From a virus, in the IMG/VR virus record IMGVR_UViG_3300018080_000138, positions 32,709 through 96,708 of that record: 64,000 nucleotides of DNA. One strand, given 5' to 3'. The notes below the pieces were generated by a model that saw nothing but the letters and a program-made list of their open reading frames with translations, searched no databases and was not told the DNA's origin. Below, in pieces: positions 8,295-51,833 of the stretch. Both the position numbers and the translations under genes were made by a program. Each line of letters starts with the position of its first letter. Within the stretch, counting starts at the first letter, position 1.

Positions 8295-8826
8295 TATAAT
8301 AAAAAGAAATGAACTTATTTTAGCAATGATCCCAAAAGGTAGAGGGATGGTAGCAAAGTCAGAATATTTTAAGAAAATAATTAAGTTTTTTCTTCAAGGT
8401 TATAGCCCTGAGGTGATAGCCAGAATACTTCGTTTAAAACATGGAAGTAAGATTACAGCCGATTCTATAAGAAAGTATGTAAAGAGATATATTGATCCAA
8501 AGTTATTAAAATATCATTTAATTCTAAGAAACAAACTGAGAAAAAACTCAGTATATGTCGCAATAGAAGAGTTGTCTGCAATACAAGAGAATAGATTGTA
8601 TAATTTACTTAGACTTGAGAAAAAAAGTAAGGACAAATATATATCTGACGCAAGGTTTGAGATAGGTACACTGTTAAATCTTTATAAAGCATTAAATTCA
8701 ATGGACGTTATTGTTACTGAGGATGAGATTACTGCTAAGCAAGATTTAAGTTTTTCAAGTGATGGTGTTAGAGTTGATAAGGTAGTATCTCTTGCTAAAA
8801 GGATAAAACAAATAAGAGGTTATTAG
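8287..8826 (+). CDS. terS: Probable small terminase subunit (HTH protein)
   Basis: A 179-residue, mostly helical basic protein with a helix-turn-helix-like segment (GYSPEVIARILR to TADSIRKYVKR, about 38-66) and a long helical middle. Its stop codon overlaps the GTG start of the terminase ATPase gene. A DNA-binding HTH plus an oligomerising helical region directly upstream of the large terminase is the classic small-terminase arrangement. The assignment rests on position and this weak domain evidence, not on a specific family match. Confidence 0.55.
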   Translation: MSDIIKRNELILAMIPKGRGMVAKSEYFKKIIKFFLQGYSPEVIARILRLKHGSKITADSIRKYVKRYIDPKLLKYHLILRNKLRKNSVYVAIEELSAIQENRLYNLLRLEKKSKDKYISDARFEIGTLLNLYKALNSMDVIVTEDEITAKQDLSFSSDGVRVDKVVSLAKRIKQIRGY

Positions 8827-9992
8827 TGAGTGTTAGACGTGAGGTAGAAAATCTTACTGATTCTGAGAAACAACTATTGAGAAAGATGTTGGATGATGAG
8901 ATTTTTTATAAGGAAGTAATAGATAATATTTATATTTGTGATAAGGTGGGAATTCAGCAATTTATTGAAGATGAAAATTATCTTGGAAGTGGTGATGAGA
9001 TTTGGCCGGCAATAAAAAACGATCTTATTAAGATATATGAGTTGGGGGTTCGAGAAGCATTTATGGTGGAGGGTATAGGTGCTGGTAAATCAACAAAGAC
9101 GGCTCTTGCGTTGTGTTATGAGTTATTTAAATTAGGGAGGTTAAAAAATCCACAAAGATACTATGGTTTACGTTCAAAAACAAAAATTGCTGTTATTAAT
9201 ATGTCAATTAGAGCAACACAGGCAAAGGATGTGTTGTTTGATGATATCCAAAGTTTAATAGGAATGTCACCTTGGTTTAATAAATTTTTTAAGCCAGATC
9301 AGAAAGTCCATTCAAAACTTAAATTTCCTAATAATATTTTTGCTATTCCTGGAAATTCACAGGAATCACTTCCAATAGGATTTACGTTAAAAGCCGCAGC
9401 ATTGGATGAAGCGGCACATTTTATGACTAAATTTCATATTGGTGATGATATGGATCAAAGTAGAAATGTTTACCTTTCATTATTGAAGAGATTAAGATCA
9501 AGATTTATGGATTATTTATTAATTGTTTGTACATCTCCGAGATTGGTAGAAGATTTGACTGAGAAGATGAGGGAAAAAGCACTAAAATCCAATGGTGACA
9601 TGTTTTGGATAAGAAGACCACTATGGAAAGCAAAACCAAAAGGATATTATGCAAATGATTATTTTGTCTATGATGAGAGGCATCAAAAAATAATTGGTTC
9701 GGCAAAGGATGTTATTGAGTGTGTGTTTGGTAAAATAGATGGATTTGAGAAACTATGTCTTGAGGAGGTTCAGTACTTGGTTAATTTAATGTATAATTAT
9801 AAGCCTGAAGCGGTTAGTGATTATGTTATTGACGAGACATTGGAGGTAGTAGACCCTGGATTAGGAATAACAAGGGCCGATGCTGATCTAAGTGTTGTTA
9901 ATATTCTTGATAGTATTAGTAACCTTGAGAAAGATGATGAGTTCGATTCTATTGAAGATATTTCCGAGAGCGCTGAGGTGCTCACTATATGA
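8826..9992 (+). CDS. terL: Terminase large subunit, ATPase part
   Basis: This is the motor half of the DNA-packaging terminase. Walker A is VEGIGAGKST (81-90), Walker B is LKAAALDEAAHF with catalytic D194/E195, and the coupling motif is LLIVCTSP (about 236-243). It ends in an acidic tail (DDEFDSIEDISESAE) without any nuclease domain. The next gene starts within its TGA stop (ATGA) and carries the nuclease. The start is GTG at 8826, overlapping the stop of the previous gene. Confidence 0.85.
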   Translation: MSVRREVENLTDSEKQLLRKMLDDEIFYKEVIDNIYICDKVGIQQFIEDENYLGSGDEIWPAIKNDLIKIYELGVREAFMVEGIGAGKSTKTALALCYELFKLGRLKNPQRYYGLRSKTKIAVINMSIRATQAKDVLFDDIQSLIGMSPWFNKFFKPDQKVHSKLKFPNNIFAIPGNSQESLPIGFTLKAAALDEAAHFMTKFHIGDDMDQSRNVYLSLLKRLRSRFMDYLLIVCTSPRLVEDLTEKMREKALKSNGDMFWIRRPLWKAKPKGYYANDYFVYDERHQKIIGSAKDVIECVFGKIDGFEKLCLEEVQYLVNLMYNYKPEAVSDYVIDETLEVVDPGLGITRADADLSVVNILDSISNLEKDDEFDSIEDISESAEVLTI

Positions 9993-10738
9993 AAATTGAA
10001 AGTATAAAAATTCATTCAGACTCAATATTAACTGTTATCCCAAGTCATTTCCTTCCAGATTACCAGGAAGATGCTGGTAAGGCACATAGAGATTTTGGTG
10101 CAAAAACACATAGAGAATCAATAAGATTTATAAGAGATGAGTTATTAGTTGATTCTATGTTTGATCAGTCAGTTAGTAGACCAATAACAGATAATCTTGT
10201 ACTTTACCGGTGGTTTTTACCTAAGAAAAATTGTTATTACCATGCGCATATTGATCTTGGGTTTAACCATTGTAGTTGTGGTATTGCACTTGCTCACCAA
10301 GAGGGTTGGGGAACAGTAATTGATTTGGCCGAGTCATTATCGCCTAAGTTATTTGGTGGTGAGATAGATTTTGAAGAAATTAGGCAAATAGTAAAATCTC
10401 TTGTTTTAAGAAGATTTAATGTCACTGTCACATACGACAGTTTTCAGTCATTTGATAGTATACAACAGTTAAGACAAGGTGGGATAATTGCTGATTTATT
10501 TTCAGTAGATAGAGATATGAGAGCATATATTTCGTTGAGAAGAGGGTTATATGAGAAGTCTATCAAATGTTATTTTTCTGAGAAGTTAAGAAATGAGCTT
10601 CTTGGTTTAGTAAGAAGTGGTGATAAAATTGATAAGCCTGTTAATGGTTCAAAGGATCTTTCTGATGCTGTTGCAGCAGCAGTATACCATTGCAGAGAGT
10701 TTTCAAATAGATTAATCACAGAAGGGAAGGTGGTATAA
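9989..10738 (+). CDS. terL: Terminase large subunit, RNase H-fold nuclease part
   Basis: The protein carries the three acidic residues of a TerL nuclease in correct order and spacing: HAHIDLGFNH (D89), VTVTYDSFQSFDS (D150) and NGSKDLSDAVAAAVYH (D226). This domain cuts concatemeric DNA during packaging. It normally follows the ATPase on the same chain. Here it has its own ATG in a 4-base ATGA overlap with the ATPase gene. Residues 1-80, with their own N-terminal segment, may dock on the ATPase. Confidence 0.83.
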   Translation: MKIESIKIHSDSILTVIPSHFLPDYQEDAGKAHRDFGAKTHRESIRFIRDELLVDSMFDQSVSRPITDNLVLYRWFLPKKNCYYHAHIDLGFNHCSCGIALAHQEGWGTVIDLAESLSPKLFGGEIDFEEIRQIVKSLVLRRFNVTVTYDSFQSFDSIQQLRQGGIIADLFSVDRDMRAYISLRRGLYEKSIKCYFSEKLRNELLGLVRSGDKIDKPVNGSKDLSDAVAAAVYHCREFSNRLITEGKVV

Positions 10739-17495: not shown

Positions 17496-17828
17496 ATGAC
17501 TACCTTCTTATTGGGTATGAGTATTGGATTTTTGTTAGTTTGTTTGCTGATTAGAAGATGGGTAAAAGTGGAGGATTTAATAGACACTGCAATCAAATCT
17601 TTTGTGGTTTTGTTGATAACAAAGTTATTTTATTTTATAGTTTTTGGTTTGACTATATACCATTTTGAGCACCTTCAAAAGTTGAATACTGATGATAGTC
17701 GCCCAAAAGTAAATCAGGAGTATTTTGAGGGGGTTAGAGATACGGTGGATATTTTGAAGAATTTGAATTCTACTTGGTGGTTTGGTGATTTAGTTCCGGA
17801 TAGAGTTGATAAACTTGAACTATGGTGA
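17496..17828 (+). CDS. Two-segment membrane protein
   Basis: Of 110 residues, two are hydrophobic segments (FLLGMSIGFLLVCLLI at 4-19 and SFVVLLITKLFYFIVFGLTIY at 35-55). A soluble C-terminal tail of about 55 residues contains a PKVNQEYFEGVRDTVDIL helix. A GGAGG site precedes the ATG. Small membrane proteins of this size in phages include holins and superinfection-exclusion proteins; nothing here decides between them. Confidence 0.6.
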   Translation: MTTFLLGMSIGFLLVCLLIRRWVKVEDLIDTAIKSFVVLLITKLFYFIVFGLTIYHFEHLQKLNTDDSRPKVNQEYFEGVRDTVDILKNLNSTWWFGDLVPDRVDKLELW

Positions 17829-17855: not shown

Positions 17856-18059
17856 GTGAAATTGAATATAAGCATAGAAATAGATGACTTAGATGATCGA
17901 ACCTGTGGTGAGCATTGTCCATTTTTGCAGGATGATGAGTGTTTACTTTTTTCCTGTGATTTAGAAGAAACTATCTTACCTAAGAATCATGTTTGGCAAG
18001 ATGGTGTTAGTCCAACCAGGCAGAGAACTTATCGATGTTTAACATTTGGAGTAGAGTAA
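17856..18059 (+). CDS. Small Cys-rich phage protein
   Basis: A 67-residue acidic protein starting at GTG 17856. The Cys pattern is TCGEHCPFLQDDECLLFSCDL followed by a late RCL. CPF-x(n)-C-x-LF-x(n)-RC is a pattern shared by many tiny phage proteins and presumably binds zinc. Its stop overlaps the next start. The function is unknown. Confidence 0.6.
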   Translation: MKLNISIEIDDLDDRTCGEHCPFLQDDECLLFSCDLEETILPKNHVWQDGVSPTRQRTYRCLTFGVE

Positions 18060-18496
18060 TGTATAAGATTCCAATTTATTTTAGAAGCAAGTTAAAAAGA
18101 AGGTTTAATGAGAATTTATTAATCTATACAGAGGGTGTAGTTAGGCGGATTGATGGACAATGTCCTTTATGTAAGGTTTATCGTAAGTTAGGATATTGTC
18201 AATTATGCCCATTTGTTACTGGGCATAATTGTGCGCATTTTGTAGTTGCTAATGTAAAGAAGGATTATACTGATGGTAAGATATTAATTAAACTTAACCT
18301 TGATGGATTTTCCATTCCAAATGCTTCTATGGAAGAAGGGAAAAAGATGATAATAAGTTTGAAGAAAAATGCAAAGAAGCAAATTAGATGGACATTTGGT
18401 AGAGAGTCACTAAGATTATATTTTAAGGATTTTGTAAGTTTTGTAGAAAAACTTATGGATTGGATAAGTTATGATATACCGGCACGTTATACGTAG
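18059..18496 (+). CDS. Cys-rich KIPIxY-family protein
   Basis: I use ATG 18059, which has GGAG 7 bases upstream, rather than ATG 18035. The 145-residue protein begins MYKIPIYFRSKLKRRF and then has a CPLC-x(9)-CQLCPF-x(6)-C cluster, a likely zinc site. The C-terminal helix (IRWTFGRESLRLYFKDFVSF) ends in DWIS. The layout matches proteins at 24431 and 28112 and the remnant at 17138, defining a local paralogous family of unknown function. It is the last gene before the long non-coding region. Confidence 0.65.
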   Translation: MYKIPIYFRSKLKRRFNENLLIYTEGVVRRIDGQCPLCKVYRKLGYCQLCPFVTGHNCAHFVVANVKKDYTDGKILIKLNLDGFSIPNASMEEGKKMIISLKKNAKKQIRWTFGRESLRLYFKDFVSFVEKLMDWISYDIPARYT

Positions 18497-18534
18497 TTTA
18501 GTATATATATAACAATGAATTAAAGTAAAAAAAA

Positions 18535-19076
18535 AATGATTAGGCACTAAGATATTGATTTGTATTTATTCCTATTCTTATACAAGATAGTTTTAGGTCG
18601 TTCATTAACATGACCCGGAAAATTTAATAGAAATCGGACAGTAGTATTAATGTAAATTGAGACATTAGTACACTAAGAATATTTCCGGGTCATACTATTA
18701 TAGTGCATCTAATAGTAGTTGGATGGTAAAGAAAGTTAACGGTAAACATAGCGAGTAGTCAATGCTGATCAAAGTAAAGAATTTTTTATACATAATTAAA
18801 ATGTATTGTAAAAATGAGTGTATTGAGTATATCCATGTAAAGGAAATTTTAGTGGATGCTATACGTTTTGTTTTTAGGTCTCCTGTACAAGATAGATTGT
18901 TACGTTATCAAAGAAGGAATATAAGATCACCTGGTAGATAGGGATATGGATAAGATTTATAAAAATAGAATTGGTAGAGTACCAGTCGATATAGAGAATT
19001 AAACAGATAAATAGTCAGTTGGTAGCCCATTAAAAAATTAAGGTATAGTGATGGTGCACCGGCTGGCTATTTTTTA
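18535..19076 (+). ncRNA. Candidate large structured RNA A, ending in a terminator
   Basis: No credible gene lies here, but many helices can be paired by eye. ATGACCCGGAAA (18610-18621) pairs with TTTCCGGGTCAT (18682-18693). Inside it, 18644-18653 pairs with 18662-18671 (10 bp, one G-U). TACTATTA (18693-18700) pairs with TAATAGTA (18710-18717), and ATACAT (18788-18793) with ATGTAT (18801-18806). 18827-18835 pairs with 18853-18864 around a 3-base bulge, and CTGGTA (18931-18936) with TACCAG (18980-18985). A 13-bp terminator hairpin closes the unit at 19011-19070. Size, phage setting and multi-helix form recall ornate RNAs such as ROOL or GOLLD. Membership is untested and the 5' end is a guess. 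Confidence 0.6.
19011..19076 (+). terminator. Intrinsic terminator of RNA A
   Basis: ATAGTCAGTTGGT (19011-19023) pairs over its full 13 bases, with three G-U pairs, with ACCGGCTGGCTAT (19058-19070). A further inner stem, GCCCAT with ATGG-T-GC, extends it. A run of T follows directly (19070-19075). No gene ends nearby, so the transcript it stops should be non-coding. Confidence 0.85.
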
Positions 19077-19204
19077 TTTATACCTGGCCCGATGGTTAGT
19101 AATGGTAAAGTAAAAGTAAAGTTAGAAAATAATGTATAAGAAGAAAGGAAATAGGAATGAGTAAGTGTAAGATAAATAAAACAAGTAAAAGTATAGATAA
19201 AAAA

Positions 19205-20215
19205 ACCAAGATTACCAAGCATAGCAGTCATAGGATATAGGAGTAACAGACAGAGACATGGTGAGGAGGGGGAAAAAGCCAACCGCGTTTACCTGGGGGC
19301 GGCGGTTAATCGAGTTATCAGTAATCTTTCCTACTCAGCATCATACTATCCTACCAAGTATTAAACCAGAGATAGCAAAGAAAATACTTACCCCGCATAT
19401 TAATGTAAAAGATCAGGTAAGACAAATAAACCAAATAGGTACTGCAACTTTACCATAGTTGAGGTTGATTTCAATACGAAGTTGACACACTACTAAAGAG
19501 AAGATGCAATAAGCGTGAAGTCAATAGCAAAAGTGGTATATAGTAAATAGAGTTGCCAAGTACGGTAAAAACTATATCATTTATTATAGATACAATATCT
19601 TAAAATCCTATATATTGTAGTAGTTTCTATATAATCAGGCAATATCTTAGATAGTTTTAGTGAACTTTCCGAGTATTTAGGCATTTTTAGGCATTTTTAG
19701 CGGAAAAACACGGTTATTCAGTAGAAATTAGCGGAAATAGTAGTATTTAGAGGGAATGTAGCAGTTTTAGCCTTAGAAATCCGCCTTAACTTGCTTTGGA
19801 GGGCATTTTTATAGGGTTGGTGGTTCAGTCGGTTACCATTAGGAATAGTAGTCGCTGATCAAAATTTTAGGCAATGGGATTTTTTAAGAATTTTAGGCAA
19901 GTTACGGCGGATTAGTCCACTTTTGTTACTTATTGTGAATAGTACAAGTATTCAGGCATGTATCTAAGAATGTTTTAGCATAAATGGTAGTTGGTCGTGT
20001 AAAATATAGAGTGGTTGAGGTAAGTCGGGTATATTGCCACTTGTTAACTTAAATGTAATAAGGTAGTTTGGTTCTCCAGAGTGATGTTATGATTAGTAGT
20101 GAGTAGAAATTGGCGCTCATTGGATGGGTATGTATGATTAAGTGTGGTAGGGAGGTATTATGTGAGTTTTATACTTGGTAATGTATCATGGGGTTAAGTC
20201 ATCATCACATATAAA
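19205..20215 (+). ncRNA. Candidate large structured RNA B
   Basis: About 1 kb without a credible gene but with long nested pairings. 19231-19237 pairs with 19347-19353, enclosing AACCGC (19281-19286) with GCGGTT (19302-19307). GTACTGCAACT (19439-19449) pairs with 19551-19563, enclosing 19451-19456 with 19533-19538 and 19465-19472 with 19517-19524. TACAATAT (19591-19598) pairs with ATATTGTA (19612-19619). A 17-base arm at 19778-19794 pairs with 19897-19913 with one mismatch. Smaller hairpins are at 19936-19954, 20010-20041 and 20159-20211. A local GC-rich island (19260-19310) stands out in AT-rich DNA, as structured RNAs do. It shares TAGTC...GCTGATCAAA with RNA A. Ends are approximate, and it could be part of one longer RNA. 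Confidence 0.5.
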
Positions 20216-20262
20216 GGAAAGAGAAGTGAGAAAGTTGAATAAGTTATATGAGTAGGTGTTTG

Positions 20263-20286
20263 TGGGATGATTTTTGCACTATATTT
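20263..20286 (+). promoter_or_regulatory. Repeated promoter, copy 1 (-24/-12-like)
   Basis: TGGGATGATTTTTGCA (20263-20278) is followed by CTATATTT, 29 bases before the gene at 20315. It is one of five copies sharing TGGGATGATTYTTGCA-n-TATAWT. The GG-N10-GC spacing equals that of sigma-54 promoters (consensus TGGCAC-N5-TTGC). This copy directly follows the structured-RNA region and has no terminator palindrome before it. Confidence 0.6.
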
Positions 20287-20314
20287 TTATGAATTAAACA
20301 AATGAGGTGACAAA

Positions 20315-49469: not shown

Positions 49470-50558
49470 ATGAAACAGGGATTGGATGAAATAAATGAAT
49501 TAATTAAAAAGGCAATTGATACTTCATTAATCGCTTCCGGTGGTGAGATGAATCCAGAGCAGGCCGATGAGTTTATAGACCTTGTTGTAGATGAGAGTGT
49601 TCTTTTACAGAATGGTGTTAGGGTTCATAGAACTAATAATCCAAAGGGTGAGATAGATAAATTAAATATTGGTGAGCCTGTAACAGAATATGCCGCTGAG
49701 TCCGGTGAAAATATTGTTGTTTATTCGAGTACACCAACAAATGCGCAAGGATATTTGTATGATCCGACATTTGATAAAATAGAATATACTGTGGTGAAAA
49801 CACGTTCAGCGTTTAACATCACAAAGGAAGCAACACAAAGTAATATTGAGAAAGAAAAACTTCGTGATACATTAGTTTCGTCTTTCGCTAAAAGAATGGG
49901 AACGGATTTAGAATTACTCGCATTAATGGGTGATCCTACAACTTATGCTGCGTCCTTTTCTAAAATTGGAAGGTTATTAAAATCTAATGTCGGTTGGTAT
50001 CGAATTATGAAAGGTGATTTAGCGCCTAATCCGGCTGCGGCACATATAATTAATGTTGGTGGGTATAATGTCAGTAAATATTTATTTTCTGAGATGATAA
50101 AGACATTGCCAAAGAAGTATTTAATGTCTTTTGATGATTTTAGATTTTTTGTGTCACCAACAATACATCAAAATTATTTAGAACAGCTTGGTGAGCGTTC
50201 AACTAATCTTGGTGATGCAGCACTTTCTGGAAAAATAGACCTTACAGCATGGGCAGTTCCGATAGTACGTGTTCCATTAATTAGTGAGACATTAGAAGGA
50301 TGTACTGATGGAACAACAGAATTGGATGATGCAACATTTATATTTTTAACTGTTCCGGAGAACTTAATTTTTGTCATGCTTAGATTATTTGATATTTATT
50401 GGGAGTTTAAACCAAGAAGTGATCGTTGGGAAAATACAACATATTCGCAGACGGATTTTCAGATTGAAAATACTGATATGGTTGTCTTGGCAGACTGTGT
50501 TGACCCGACAAGCTGTAATATATATAATCCATGTAATCGTTCGTTAACAAGAATTTAA
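49470..50558 (+). CDS. Major capsid protein (HK97 fold)
   Basis: A 362-residue protein. An N-terminal helical segment precedes the P-domain-like strands (VRVHRTNNPKGEIDKLNIGEPV) and E-loop region. TVVKTRSAFNITKEATQSNIEKEKLRDTLVSSFAKRMGTDLELLALMGD matches the long spine helix of phage capsid proteins, and a late PENLIFVMLRLFDIYWEFKPR precedes the C-terminus. Position right after the protease/scaffold agrees. AAAGGAG precedes the ATG. A perfect hairpin follows the stop. Confidence 0.85.
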   Translation: MKQGLDEINELIKKAIDTSLIASGGEMNPEQADEFIDLVVDESVLLQNGVRVHRTNNPKGEIDKLNIGEPVTEYAAESGENIVVYSSTPTNAQGYLYDPTFDKIEYTVVKTRSAFNITKEATQSNIEKEKLRDTLVSSFAKRMGTDLELLALMGDPTTYAASFSKIGRLLKSNVGWYRIMKGDLAPNPAAAHIINVGGYNVSKYLFSEMIKTLPKKYLMSFDDFRFFVSPTIHQNYLEQLGERSTNLGDAALSGKIDLTAWAVPIVRVPLISETLEGCTDGTTELDDATFIFLTVPENLIFVMLRLFDIYWEFKPRSDRWENTTYSQTDFQIENTDMVVLADCVDPTSCNIYNPCNRSLTRI

Positions 50559-50576
50559 TTTAATTTAATAGAATTG

Positions 50577-50617
50577 AAGATAGTAGGTGCAATGTAGTAA
50601 TACACACCTACTATCTT
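50577..50617 (+). terminator. Perfect 13-bp hairpin behind the capsid gene
   Basis: AAGATAGTAGGTG (50577-50589) pairs perfectly with CACCTACTATCTT (50605-50617) around a 15-base loop. No T run follows, so it may be a weak terminator, a processing or stability hairpin that keeps capsid mRNA abundant, or both. Confidence 0.6.
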
Positions 50618-50639
50618 AAAATTATAAAGGATAGTTTTT

Positions 50640-51833
50640 ATGGAAAGATATATTAAGCTAACAAATGCACGAAGTATTACAATAGATTTGTTTGGAGTTA
50701 CGAGAAAGTTTAGACAGGGTATTTGTTCGTTAGTTAGTGAAAGAGAATACTCTTATTTAATGCAAAATCAGTATGGAGTCCTTTTTACTGAGGTAAAGAA
50801 GAATGTCTTTGATGGTCAAGATAAAAAAATATATGATTTTGAGATGCTACAGTTTAATTCCCATAAAGAAATATTAAGTAGAAGAAATAAGGTAAAGAAG
50901 ATAGATATGAGTAGTTTGAAGGATAATAGAATATTGTTCGTTAGACCTGGTGGAATAGGTGATATTCTTTATACATTTTGCGTTGCTTCATATATTAAAA
51001 GTATAGAGAGTTCTGTGCGAATAGCATTGGCATCGGGAAAAAAATATCTAAAACTTTTACCTTTTACCAGGTCAATAGATTGGGGACTTGAGTATAATGG
51101 AAATATCTCAAGTGAAGAATTTGATCAGGTAGCAAGTTTTATTGGTGCGGTTGAAGCTAACAAGAAGGCAGAAAAATTACATTATGTCGATGCTTATTAT
51201 GATTGGTTAGGGATTGATTATAACAGTGTCCCGGAAGAATATAAAGTACCAAAATTATTTTTAACGGATACTGCGAAAAAAATTGCAGATGAGATATGGG
51301 AAAGATGGAGTCTGGATAAGCACATTACAATAGGACTTGCGTTACGTGCAAGTTCAAAGCTTAGATCATGGCATCCTGAGTATAATAAAAAACTTGCGTT
51401 GGCATTTGCTAAAAGGGGCATAAAAGTGTTATTATTTGATAGTATATCAACTCTTGAGTTTGGTGGGAAAAATATACTGTCATATTGTGGAAATCTTGGA
51501 TTAGAAGGATTAGTTGGCTGTGTTTCAAAACTTGACTTATTAATTGCGCCGGATACGGGGTTATTACATATTGCTGGTAGTTTAGGAATTCCTGCTGTTG
51601 GAATATACTCATCATTTAATCCTGAGTTGAGAGTAAGTAAGTATAAAAATGTTTTATATACAAAACCATCATTTAAGTGTGCACCATGTTATCATCATAT
51701 TGAGTCACAGTGTAAAAGTAAATCACTGGGTGATAACCCACCTTGTATGACGGGTATAACACCAAAAGAAGTATTTTTATTGGCAAGAAAATTAATACAT
51801 AATACAAGAAAGATTGATATTGCAAGACTTTAG
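50640..51833 (+). CDS. GT9 glycosyltransferase with N-terminal extension
   Basis: In this 397-residue protein, residues about 95-397 are GT9: ILFVRPGGIGDILYTFCVASYI, LALRASSKLRSWHPEY, KLDLLIAPDTGLLHIAGSLGIPAVGIYSSF and a final Cys cluster (FKCAPCYHH, CKSK, PPCMTG). The first 60 residues (YIKLTNARSITIDLFGVTRKF, REYSYLMQNQYGVLF) are not part of GT9 and look like a small phage head protein or binding domain. Fused beside the capsid gene, the extension could direct the enzyme to the capsid, which is inference. Confidence 0.75.
   Translation: MERYIKLTNARSITIDLFGVTRKFRQGICSLVSEREYSYLMQNQYGVLFTEVKKNVFDGQDKKIYDFEMLQFNSHKEILSRRNKVKKIDMSSLKDNRILFVRPGGIGDILYTFCVASYIKSIESSVRIALASGKKYLKLLPFTRSIDWGLEYNGNISSEEFDQVASFIGAVEANKKAEKLHYVDAYYDWLGIDYNSVPEEYKVPKLFLTDTAKKIADEIWERWSLDKHITIGLALRASSKLRSWHPEYNKKLALAFAKRGIKVLLFDSISTLEFGGKNILSYCGNLGLEGLVGCVSKLDLLIAPDTGLLHIAGSLGIPAVGIYSSFNPELRVSKYKNVLYTKPSFKCAPCYHHIESQCKSKSLGDNPPCMTGITPKEVFLLARKLIHNTRKIDIARL

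Follow-up and report, generated by a model that had tools for sequence, protein, structure and literature searches.

The secondary structure of ROOL RNA is elaborate, includes multiple pseudoknots and is supported by covariation; the RNA is organized as a homo-octameric nanocage. Both ROOL and GOLLD are large, are often found near tRNA islands and present an extensive structure supported by covariation (PMC12286853). Many GOLLD members are longer than 800 nt and possess a conserved 3' region (PMC12286853). An earlier note on the DNA studied here had proposed a large ornate RNA of this kind at 18,535-19,076 of the analysed window, a stretch of 64,000 nucleotides corresponding to bases 32,709-96,708 of a 96.7-kb phage record (all coordinates below are window positions). 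The coordinates of that region are correct, and it is similar to ROOL in its length class, in being phage-encoded and in being non-coding; it is comparable to GOLLD as a phage-encoded and large element, provided that the whole gene-free gap to which it belongs is counted. Nevertheless, no Rfam family reaches the gathering score in the 64-kb window, and at E values up to 10 the segment 17,800-20,700 gives no match to ROOL, GOLLD, OLE or HEARO, the families to which the earlier note had pointed, with weak matches to others far below threshold. The locus further differs from ROOL by the absence of tRNA genes in the window, and the many conserved helices and pseudoknots of that RNA are not evidenced here, the number of helices being at chance level. 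As for GOLLD, its conserved 3' region is not detected by the Rfam model at E up to 10, and the fold of the later part of the gap is at the level of shuffled sequence. A phage-operon terminator with a 3' UTR hairpin offers another comparison: the GC-containing stem, the U run and the strong stem-loop after the last stop codon are all found here, but the trailer would measure about 570 bases, which is long for a compact phage genome. Small RNAs derived from the 3' UTRs of phages and bacteria also resemble the locus, as far as general knowledge and the sequence alone allow the comparison, in having a strong hairpin and a terminator where an operon ends.

The record is densely coding, and the inventory of gaps over its 96.7 kb left 18,497-20,314 (1.8 kb, plus strand) as the sole large true gap, flanked on the left by a long rightward operon and on the right by a block of small genes; an apparent second gap at about 62.4-63.6 kb was seen, on inspection of the sequence, to be an open frame continuing towards the end. 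The region 18,535-19,076 is the first third of the gap. That about 540 bases lack a credible gene was borne out by codon scores and family searches, but the gene-free stretch is in fact 1.8 kb long. The ORFs of the gap have codon scores near zero, and family searches made with them, including a 59-aa frame, were empty or stayed below the cut-off. This 59-aa ORF (18,762-18,941), contained in the spacer between the hairpin and the terminator described below, scores 0.05 bits per codon and has no ribosome-binding site; the neighbouring small genes mostly score 0.13-0.43 bits per codon, one of them, at 17,496, being also at 0.05. A decayed gene was rejected, as the stop-to-stop frames have no family match above the cut-off, and recoding of TAG or TGA was rejected as well, no convincing long frame emerging in the gap. 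The region is non-coding: a protein frame across it, which would speak against an RNA, was sought through codon scores and family matches and none was found. Inside the gap, at 19,275-19,500, the GC skew, otherwise positive in the record, is locally reversed and the GC content is higher.

A long imperfect hairpin occupies positions 18,610-18,693 (plus strand), about 110 bases downstream of the last stop codon (18,496). It is composed of a 12-bp perfect outer stem (ATGACCCGGAAA/TTTCCGGGTCAT), four additional pairs and an inner stem of about 13 pairs, with a stability of about -28 kcal/mol. In 60 shuffles no helix reached 12 bp, and the 90-nt window at 18,608 has a fold z of -5.69, the most extreme among the 15 most stable windows of the genome, a tile near 50,543 being similar. 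The outer helix enclosing an inner one, as first described, is real and beyond chance. An exact search of IMG/VR for the outer stem gave five matches in other contigs, mostly GC-rich, mostly within open frames and without sequence similarity to the region, which were rejected as relatives. Strong structure is also seen elsewhere: the 90-nt tile at 50,543 (z -5.6) belongs to a strongly structured spacer (50,543-50,640) immediately 3' of the major capsid gene, and a 12-bp perfect hairpin (CAATTATGCCCA...TGGGCATAATTG) lies at 18,200-18,231 within a Cys-rich gene (18,035-18,496).

At the other end of the region, positions 19,009-19,074 (plus strand) carry a predicted intrinsic transcription terminator with a lower stem of 15-17 pairs, a short inner stem and then TTTTTT. 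The stem (19,009-19,072; about -27 kcal/mol) runs into TTTTTTATTT, and the stretch 18,990-19,076 folds with a z of -5.4. A stable stem-loop with an adjoining U run, by which intrinsic terminators are recognized, is present, so that the strong terminator followed by a T run that had been announced was found in canonical form, and it gives good support to the prediction that a transcript ends near 19,075. By our own reading of the listings, the record has two clear intergenic intrinsic terminators, this one and another near 1,905, about 50 bases behind its gene. The one at 19,009-19,074 lies 571 bases 3' of the stop codon at 18,496 that ends the rightward operon, and there is no better terminator between that codon and 19,009. 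It had been argued that a terminator without a preceding gene implies a non-coding transcript, but this does not follow: since the stop of the operon is 571 bases upstream and no better terminator lies between, a long 3' trailer can explain it. At such a distance from the last gene, the terminator could end either a trailer of the left operon or a separate RNA.

The whole segment 18,535-19,080 folds better than shuffled sequence (z -4.2), an effect that can be traced to the hairpin at 18,610-18,693 and the terminator stretch at 18,990-19,076. The z is -2.0 for 18,535-18,985 and -0.85, no better than shuffled sequence, for 18,700-18,985; the spacer as a whole (18,694-19,005, plus strand) has no fold beyond chance. 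For 19,320-20,215, the larger part of the remaining gap, z is +0.16; long nested inverted repeats are found in this second part of the gap. Perfect helices of at least 8 bp number 4, against 2.6 ± 1.5 in shuffles, and those of at least 7 bp number 8, against 10.2 ± 2.9. Because these counts match shuffled sequence, no weight can be given to the other short and long-range helices: among the at least six helices claimed by the earlier note, the 12-bp outer one with its inner helix stands, while the remaining ones occur at chance frequency. Similarly, the motif ACAAGATAG is present twice in the region as stated, but calculation from the base composition predicts about six chance pairs of repeated 10-mers for a gap this large. 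The sequence TACAAGATAG has two copies in 96.7 kb, both in this region. A direct repeat (D1, 18,740/19,830), identical at 24 of 34 positions, was at shuffle level and was rejected.

Relatives of the gap were sought in sets that may lack records very close to this genome: the gap DNA had just chance-level matches of 33-43 bases among 50,697 phage records, no match among 72,556 plasmids and no similarity in some 220 loci and records fetched via RNA ligase, portal and capsid. The 80 loci obtained via RNA ligase were rejected, none having a common neighbourhood or the gap sequence. Using terminase, portal and capsid, the nearest relative was found by capsid and is 46-48% identical in that protein; its 76.8-kb record was set aside, as it has no gap longer than 415 bases and no similarity to 18,497-20,314. 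Concerning the terminase itself, the gene is apparently split in this phage (8,826-10,738), with an ATPase protein at 8,826-9,992 and a separate overlapping ORF at 9,989-10,738, whereas in relatives it is a single protein of about 600 aa; the second ORF, which has no family match, may be the nuclease part, a guess from its sequence. Between 29 and 62 kb, reading of the translations showed many glycosyltransferase-like and sugar-metabolism genes, with repeated paralogues among the sugar-related ones (36,957, 38,043, 41,955 and 42,872).

The reading that we tentatively place first is that 18,497-19,076 would be a long 3' trailer of the preceding rightward operon, equipped with a processing or stabilizing hairpin. 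It is preferred because sigma70-type promoter matches in the area occur at the shuffled rate (25 versus 23.7 in shuffles), and the plus strand has none from 18,417 to the terminator. In such a scenario, the operon, with its last stop codon at 18,496, would end in this stretch, transcribed without being translated, and RNA polymerase would read through to the strong intrinsic terminator at 19,009-19,074. The hairpin at 18,610-18,693 would most likely be an RNase III-type processing site or a barrier to 3' exonucleases, and its action would set the lifetime of the upstream mRNA; the bases between hairpin and terminator would need no specific fold. The gap would then form the border of two transcription units, with the terminator at the end of the left unit and a sigma54-like promoter at 20,263 at the start of the right unit, and the 1.2 kb between them may hold DNA-level signals. 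The canonical form of the terminator, the extreme z of the hairpin, the unstructured middle, the lack of a promoter match and of a coding signal, and the sigma54-like right border all argue for a trailer. Against it stands its length, 571 bases being unusual in a compact genome in which the other clear terminator follows its gene so closely.

The main rival, possible but rather doubtful, is a dedicated small or medium non-coding RNA of the phage, of about 450-580 bases, which would start from a promoter of its own at about 18,500 or be cut from the operon end, and whose 5' hairpin and 3' terminator would provide stable ends to a molecule pairing, for example, with host or phage mRNA. The robust hairpins at both ends, the non-coding sequence between them, the fold of the whole region and the presence of a gap atypical of a dense genome are consistent with it; however, no promoter rises above chance in the sigma70-type scan, no sigma54-like site among the five precedes the region, the middle is unstructured and no relatives were found. 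A transcript may nonetheless start inside the gap from a promoter type invisible to a sigma70 scan.

A DNA-level element is unlikely: here the gap would be a replication origin or a packaging/terminus region, with hairpins and repeats as protein sites. This would fit the only large gap in 96.7 kb and an iteron-like cluster of four TTTAGGCA copies in the same orientation (19,676, 19,686, 19,866 and 19,892; 19,676-19,905, plus strand), which holds four of the seven copies in the record and is its second strongest local 8-mer enrichment, after a coding repeat. An AT-rich stretch adjoins the cluster, making it a possible candidate origin. However, the cluster is outside the reported RNA, the gap has no DnaA-box cluster, no initiator gene appears among the ORFs read and a canonical terminator is an RNA-level signal. 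It is less likely again that the gap encodes an undescribed large non-coding RNA from a sparsely sampled phage lineage, made as a discrete and abundant transcript from about 18,500 to 19,075. Finally, a new class of large ornate RNA akin to ROOL and GOLLD, with several conserved helices across the 540 bases or the 1.8-kb gap, is very improbable and the proposal of the earlier note is not supported: size, phage setting, the whole-region z and the nested inverted repeats of the second part could suggest it, but helices mostly at chance, the z values of the middle and of 19,320-20,215, and the lack of tRNA, of an Rfam match of any significance up to an E value of 10 and of relatives in which covariation could be seen speak against it.

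A sigma54-like promoter, TGGGATGATTTTTGCA, lies where the gap ends on the right (20,263-20,278, plus strand) and is the first of five in the record. The -24/-12 pattern of sigma54 promoters consists of GG, ten bases and GC, and the site at 20,263 fits it at 10 of 12 scored positions. The core TGGGATGATTYTTGCA has five copies (20,263, 20,647, 21,650, 24,925 and 27,446) in the block of small genes to the right of the gap, and no other site in the record reaches that score; simulated sequences average 1.3 such sites (maximum 6), so that the number by itself is modest evidence, and repetition, position and the common core weigh more. Five such putative promoters would be unusual for a phage. The palindrome GTATGGAGTnnACTCCATAC is also present in five copies (20,504, 21,527, 24,784, 24,817 and 27,303), 108-143 bases upstream of the last four promoters, and at up to four mismatches no other copy exists in the 96.7-kb record; the promoter at 20,263 is without it. 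These palindromes resemble enhancer sites of sigma54 activators, at a distance typical of such sites, and may be activator sites or else weak terminators. No sigma54 or activator domain is found in the record, so that host factors would be needed. By inspection, three of the five sites can also be read as sigma70 promoters (TTGGGA, 17 bases, TATAAT), and part of the similarity comes from duplication of a 186-base segment. A search for the promoter core gave no match, and the two matches of the palindrome, without promoter context, were rejected.

As it stands, the region amounts to an orphan transcript end whose one remarkable feature is a hairpin; a new class of large RNA, if true, would enlarge the small set of giant phage RNAs whose function is unknown. 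The sigma54-like promoters and their palindromes are arguably more interesting than the claimed RNA: if they are true, the small-gene block of this phage would depend on the alternative sigma factor of its host.
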